A stretch of DNA of 64,000 nucleotides from Prosthecobacter gellanilyticus (GTDB lineage: Bacteria; Verrucomicrobiota; Verrucomicrobiia; Verrucomicrobiales; Verrucomicrobiaceae): the NCBI RefSeq assembly GCF_007992435.1, contig NZ_BKAG01000003.1:186001-250000 (forward strand), read 5' to 3'. Below, one piece after another: positions 23,525 through 53,692 of this stretch. Position 1 is the first letter of the stretch. Each line of letters opens with the position of its first letter. The position numbers and the translations under genes are program-made. The notes under the pieces are model-generated. The model searched no databases. It had not been told where the DNA came from and saw only the letters and a program-made list of their open reading frames with translations.

Positions 23525-23631
23525 AATGACGAATGAGTAAATCCGAATGACGAAAGAATGATGAATGCCGAAGCTCGAAGGGCTGGCCGTCATTTGGACT
23601 TCGACATTCCCTCGTGATTCGTCATTCCCGT
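23525..23631. repeat. Inverted repeat built from permuted AATGACGAA-like words
   Basis: The left arm (23525-23581) holds AATGACGAATGAG, AATCCGAATGACGAA, AATGATGAAT and GCTCGAAGG. The right arm (to 23631) holds the complementary words, reading GGAATGACGAATCACGAG and GGAATGTCGAAGTCC on the minus strand. The centre is a short GC-rich GGCTGGCC. The right arm overlaps and encodes the last ~13 residues and stop of tolC. A second member lies at 53598-53692. Confidence 0.65.
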
Positions 23632-53598: not shown

Positions 53599-53692
53599 GG
53601 GGAATGACGAAATCCGAATGAACGAATGACGAAGTTGGAGAGGCGAACCTGTGGGTGGGAGTCGGCCACTCGTCATTTAGATTCAGCTCATT
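53598..53692. repeat. Inverted repeat of AATGACGAA-like words, second member
   Basis: The left arm (GGAATGACGAAATCCGAATGA, then ACGAATGACGAAG) and the right arm (ACTCGTCATTTAGATTCAG, then CTCATTTTCC) are related by inversion around a 25-base GC-rich centre. The words are those of the repeat at 23525-23631. It fills the divergent gap between hsp70 and trpD. Confidence 0.62.

Follow-up and report, generated by a model that had tools for sequence, protein, structure and literature searches.

The tolC-like gene and its element-coded end

The window, by which we mean the whole stretch of 64,000 nucleotides analysed here, lies on contig 3 of the Prosthecobacter gellanilyticus genome and carries a tolC-like efflux gene separated by 88 bp from a conserved gene downstream. 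Across the end of tolC and the gap lies an inverted repeat of about 102 bp built from 7-bp words (Table 1). An original prediction made from the letters alone had described such a repeat, and it is borne out: arms at 23545-23573 and 23599-23627 are 72% complementary, and the window holds 11 near-matches to GAATGACGAA (at most one mismatch) against a shuffle mean of 3.76, with 0 of 100 shuffles reaching 11.

Table 1. Coordinates of the tolC-like and hsp70 loci and of their repeats in the window
Feature	Position	Strand	Remark
tolC-like outer membrane efflux protein, 410 aa	23590..24822	-	Pfam OEP, best stretch ends at residue 399
tolC-like tail MTNHEGMSKSK with its TGA, coded by the element	23590..23625	-	
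MITE-like inverted-arm heptad element	23525..23626		Gap between tolC-like gene and next gene
Canonical 30-bp arm, 0 mismatches	23525..23554	+	Open (outward) reading towards downstream gene; C3:209525-209554 in the genome
Second arm, diverged	23596..23626	-	Read inwards by tolC
Conserved downstream gene, 116 aa	23151..23501	-	22 bp from element; syntenic marker for empty sites; no Pfam match at E 0.001
hsp70, PF00012	51829..53598	-	Start codon 3 bp from element
Partial related element (word cluster)	53602..53678		Gap upstream of hsp70
"trpD" (name given in the original prediction), PF00591 and PF02885	53783..54823	+	Divergent from hsp70

The tolC translation ends in ...EAATG-MTNHEGMSKSK*, the terminal stretch reading ...EAATGMTNHEGMSKSK*. 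The third base of the Gly399 codon is the first base of an AATGACG word, and by codon count M400 to K410 and the TGA derive from the element. The prediction had assigned about 13 residues of the tail to the repeat; tail and stop are indeed element-coded, the number being 11.

The related copy foreseen in the gap between hsp70 and "trpD" is also present. It was expected to open the frame upstream of the hsp70 start, and the frame is open through the element to an in-frame ATG at 53676, but coding use of this copy is disfavoured. Because the Pfam HSP70 domain already begins at residue 4 of the shorter, 589-aa form, the upstream extension is more likely an untranslated leader.

Comparison with tolC orthologs

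The prediction had named conservation of the tail in orthologs without the repeat as the observation that would count against it. Among 39 other tolC orthologs or close homologs, the tail MTNHEGMSKSK occurs in none, so that the reading stands. Their alignments to the window protein end at residue 398-401 in 33 of the 39 and at 402-409 in 6. The same downstream gene follows tolC in 16 of the 39, and the element is absent from 15 of these 16. In the 15, the protein continues for 1-6 residues past position 399 (such as KP*, HP*, QH*, SAR*), or for 10 in one of them, and tolC and the downstream gene are -4 to 37 bp apart, versus the 88 bp of the window. Two records (L121 and L033, alike in their 76% identity and in their tail) look like one, which would make the independent empty sites 14 of 15.

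A AATGACGAA word near the tolC end was found in one of the 39 orthologs (L125), and a single 7-mer in four others. The one belongs to genome G152 (L125/L174, G152:C36), where the tolC gap carries an almost identical arm at the same place as in the window and where the tolC tail, IRTSK*, may derive from a decayed copy of the element. Because G152 is a more distant species and closer tolC orthologs (82% identity) are without the element, the insertion in the tolC gap may be old, with losses elsewhere, or recurrent. This comparison of sequences shows that the element supplied the C-terminus and stop codon of tolC: it replaced the native end, and the protein now closes with element-coded residues and an element TGA.

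A weaker second case, consistent with an element-coded tail, is a DUF5722 protein (L086) that ends in VMTKPE*. None of the nine close orthologs shares this ending (theirs are VMREP*, VMGAP*, WSEP* and others) or contains a AATGACGAA word. Since the best alignments reach residues 647-660 of a total of 661, the difference is confined to the last few residues. The C-terminal cases checked against orthologs are tolC and DUF5722, with 13 more distant DUF5722 matches (35-38% identity) standing outside the comparison. Further candidate tails are found in a transporter ending in MTKSE*, which we take to be of the RND type, and in an EamA transporter ending in RMTKP*.

A dispersed family of inverted heptad arms

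The genome searched comprises 7.65 Mb in 137 contigs, in which GAATGACGAA has 191 exact copies as against 3 for its reversed control, and the sequence around the words keeps a 7-bp phase. The arm itself, AATGACGAATGAGTAAATCCGAATGACGAA, is 30 bp long, occurs inverted and is built on the 7-bp word AATGACG and its variants. With at most two mismatches it is present in 32 of the 48 genomes of the genus, where the control gave 0 matches; of 239 genomes from the order, 69 contain a 14-base word pair, and 50 of these belong to the family of the window.

Among the loci covered by this search, and with arms allowed up to five mismatches, we found 23 distinct paired copies of 121-185 bp, each with inverted arms of about 30 bp and a variable middle; solo arms are common. 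The tolC copy falls outside these 23, since its tolC-side arm has diverged further. The paired copies have the size and structure of miniature elements of the MITE type (some 70-300 bp of non-coding sequence bounded by terminal inverted repeats), and the 191 word copies and 15 empty sites among 16 tolC gaps agree with the high copy number, dispersal and empty sites of such elements. By eye, none of the 23 pairs (one of them without a right flank) showed a flanking target-site duplication, and a search covering Y1_Tnp genes found no autonomous copy or transposase. From dispersal and empty sites we infer that the family has been mobile.

A 132-bp element in two species (L148 in G078 and L149 in G152) has flanks that match between them and is an orthologous insertion, vertically kept. 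Pure tandem arrays of the word are few and the copies are mostly degenerate. One uninterrupted array of about ten GAATGAC heptads lies on contig 55 (G000:C55:33906-33980, L112 3994-4086); it is possibly a source of the words or a product of their expansion.

Placement and reading direction of the arms

The position of copies relative to gene ends was scored against 513 calls by a home-made gene caller on the fetched part of the window's own genome. The set of word clusters is complete for the 10-mer to about contig 16 (the first 100 of 191 places) and partial beyond. It contains 78 clusters: 44 are intergenic and 11 lie inside a call; of those at a boundary, 13 cover a stop, 8 a start and 2 both a start and a stop. 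Some of the stop and inside labels are over-called by the rule that chains words or reflect chance single words. The count of copies and of their places that the prediction had proposed thus gives 23 of 78 clusters overlapping a called gene end or start. Its broader claim, that the element seems to have inserted at gene ends or starts and supplied coding sequence, agrees with tolC and with these boundary clusters; the hsp70 copy offers only an open leader.

The arms have a marked polarity. In the inward reading, (AATGACG)n meets a TGA within 21 nt whatever the frame, and either stops at once or codes MTNDE* or NDE*. The outward reading is free of stops and of ATG, GTG and TTG, and every frame gives the same rotating peptide RHSSFVI (FVIRHSS). 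Both properties extend to all frames because the word length, 7, is not divisible by 3. Computed for the canonical arm, the inward reading likewise stops in all frames and the outward reading is open. With the arms inverted, a gene entering a copy reaches a stop after a few codons, and one that begins inside or beyond a copy meets open sequence. The polarity would in this way make insertion at a gene boundary cheap, and it suggests why the repeat can occupy exact gene ends and starts. It is also a warning that gene callers may extend proteins through the repeat.

The placement of arms follows the polarity. The arm nearest a start codon is in the open reading in a ratio of 31:5 (p=1.3e-5), or 21:4 for solo arms (p=9e-4), and the arm nearest a stop is in the stop reading in a ratio of 31:12 (p=0.005), or 18:11 for solo arms (p=0.26, not significant), "solo" arms being those that lack an exact opposite 10-mer up to 250 bp away, arms with diverged partners among them. 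An inverted pair yields the outward bias at starts and the inward bias at stops automatically, and 18% of possible heptads (2996 of 16380) stop inwards and are open outwards. For these two reasons we read the polarity as tolerance and not as proof of selection.

Predicted signal peptides from outward arms

All signal peptides were scored by a home-made rule, not by SignalP or experiment. In the fetched part of the window's own genome, seven genes with an arm-coded segment in the N-terminal leader score as having one: a PQQ protein with the leader MKLSFALLSSFVILHSSLALAA (L072), L074, proteins matching Pfam Pec_lyase (L091) and Sulfatase (L111), a protein that is sulfatase-like by eye (L120), a protein matching Pfam OEP with ...TFVILHSSFVILSGC in its leader (L115; presumably a NodT-like lipoprotein), and L082, whose predicted signal peptide is arm-coded only in part.

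A search with TTCGTCATTCTnnnTTCGTCATT was positive in 33 of the 48 genus genomes, with 0 control matches. We analysed 89 distinct FVIL hits (loci L207-L296), a subset of all matches and one obtained with a pattern chosen to contain FVIL. The arm is in the coding frame in 53 of the 89, and 28 of these 53 have an ATG at most 40 codons upstream. Of these, 21 (75%) score as signal peptides, compared with 120 of 428 called genes (28%; Fisher p=9e-7), several of the 21 being orthologs of one another (e.g., L216, L226 and L290). Contrast patterns, mostly of the FVIR type and covering more loci, gave 118 hits, of which 27 are in frame with an ATG and 17 of the 27 score; most of the 17 repeat genes already counted, but four genes, L082, L111, L147 and L257, score with no FVIL. 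For this reason the idea of an Arg-to-Leu change is not established. Under a looser rule the FVIL frame is preferred among arms with an upstream ATG (22 of 32, 22/9/1, p=5e-5) and not significantly among those without (15 of 34, 15/10/9, p=0.2), the difference between the two groups being borderline (Fisher p=0.052).

In some individual leaders (L115, L240 and L243) the arm-coded segment accounts, by eye, for the greater part of the hydrophobic core, with a lipobox or an Ala-rich cleavage site after it. Outward arms, often in the variant FVIL, would have been recruited repeatedly as hydrophobic cores of signal peptides, and the repeat is probably a recurrent donor of them.

Two gene families were followed across orthologs. 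The pectate-lyase-like protein has 44 matches, of which 30, the own copy among them, were compared. Core words lie within 260 bp before the mature part in 21 of the 30, two have decayed words only, and seven with no word or one word carry unrelated, ordinary leaders. The spacing to the mature protein is the same in 21 of the 23 word-bearing loci (all except L314 and L315). At the three codon positions the differences are 0.25/0.18/0.31 in the leader and 0.08/0.08/0.39, mostly third, in the body. Because the leader differs at all positions, this comparison, which is not decisive, gave no sign of purifying selection on it. The pattern resembles a single early recruitment that has been retained. 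Of 47 matches to the PQQ protein, 30 were compared, own copy included, and core words occur within 150 bp in five of the 30 (own, G005, G006, G009 and G058) and in none of the other 25. The G058 leader reads SSFGIRHS, and three loci without core words (L354, L355 and L363) contain HSSF, which may be a relic. The PQQ leaders look like younger recruitments.

Alternative explanations

The reading that best accounts for these data, with a probability of about 0.7, is a dispersed, MITE-like Prosthecobacter family that replaced the end of tolC, has stop/open polarity and has had its arms recruited as signal peptides. The more ambitious version, a frame-proof gene-boundary module that repeatedly supplies new C-termini and, above all, functional signal peptides in place of native ones, falls just short of an even chance. 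The signal peptides in particular could be accidents of common hydrophobic runs and miscalled starts, as might be suspected from a heuristic rule, only seven genes in the own genome, high scores also for the FVIR-type contrast arms and a borderline frame bias. Such accidents are improbable given the 75% against a 28% baseline, the mostly arm-coded cores of L115, L240 and L243 with their cleavage motifs, and the unrelated leaders that stand at the same place in orthologs. Replication slippage acting on words already present by chance, with no insertion at all, would account for the heptad phase and for the uninterrupted array on contig 55. It is nevertheless very unlikely: at least 12 genomes among the matches listed contain the 30-bp arm, which is not tandem, with no mismatch; unrelated loci and species have exact arms in common; and copies come in inverted pairs.

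Two further alternatives concern what the repeat is or does. It might be kept mainly as an RNA hairpin, a terminator or a stabiliser of mRNA 3' ends, with tails and N-termini as side effects. The RNA of the tolC element does have a predicted fold of -32.1 kcal/mol (z=-2.58), and many copies lie near stops; yet a solo arm has no predicted fold, the hsp70 copy folds weakly (z=-1.41), arms near starts are nearly as common as those near stops (36 versus 43), and Rfam gave 0 matches in the window at gathering scores. We consider this role unlikely as the main one, and as a sole explanation it is weak for solo arms and for the hsp70 copy. A still smaller probability, marginally below that of slippage, goes to a REP/RAYT system of the GTAG or CGTC type. 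The repeats are short, high in copy number, intergenic and often oppositely oriented, the arm contains CGTC, and the own genome has 19 matches to Y1_Tnp (RAYT-like). This identity is largely refuted, since a single arm does not fold and no core word was found at 28 of 30 fetched Y1_Tnp loci (eight genomes, flanks of up to about 1.5 kb); at the two exceptions, L193 and L202, words stand on one side, at distances of about 300 and 480 bp.

Relation to known repeats

The MITE-like family set out above shares single features with several systems, compared here through parts of three published accounts. Heptamer repeats of the TAACTGA type in Beggiatoaceae and cyanobacteria are intergenic and carry forward stops in all three frames (PMC4679880). 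They resemble the present family in these respects, and many similar heptamers can be translated in reverse. They differ in being direct repeats of another word, placed mostly upstream of starts and with a proposed translational role, and the part of that description drawn on here contains neither an inverted-arm element nor signal-peptide recruitment (PMC4679880). Bacterial MITEs such as YPAL and RU-2 of Yersinia and RPE of Rickettsia are likewise about 100-200 bp long, have inverted repeats and form in-frame gene fusions, and one YPAL copy forms part of the signal peptide of YPO1552 (PMC2229807). In contrast to these, the present copies have heptad-built arms and no target duplication was seen, although in the table of that paper the duplication is not universal, with a "?" for RPE, CIR and RU-3. 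Apparent use as signal peptide, in contrast to the YPAL case, recurs here in several gene families and species (PMC2229807).

The ends of REPs frequently provide a stop codon (TAG), and certain REPs sit at the end of a coding sequence or within a gene, as copies of this family do (PMC3733652). GTAG/CGTC REPs are, however, palindromes of 20-40 bp with GTAG/CGTC tags, whereas the arm here is non-palindromic and, in the loci examined, unlinked to RAYT genes (PMC3733652). As far as these accounts go, repeat-supplied stops, three-frame heptamers and one MITE-derived signal peptide are each known singly. Going by titles and the openings of abstracts, searches of open-licence papers in PubMed Central turned up no account of the Prosthecobacter family or of signal peptides recruited repeatedly from a repeat. 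Little is understood of how bacterial proteins come by their signal peptides, and a non-coding repeat appears here to be a recurrent source of them. Since orthologs with and without the repeat exist in one genus, this exaptation is directly testable.

Other word-permuted repeats

Some related repeats were met in passing. The reversed control CAGTAAGCAGTAAG has 31 and 32 matches in G081 and G092, two genomes of a related genus (g18) in the same family, and a separate heptamer family (CAGTAAG) seems to exist there. Another word-permuted repeat (AGTGCTGAGTGCTCAGTACTGAG...) lies directly downstream of the tolC ortholog of another species (L042, in G014). A word-like repeat CTTCTCACTTCTCACC is found in the N-terminus of the gene after tolC at L046, and another, TTCCCGTTTCCCG, after a stop at L333; the last two hint at further families that feed leaders and gene ends.
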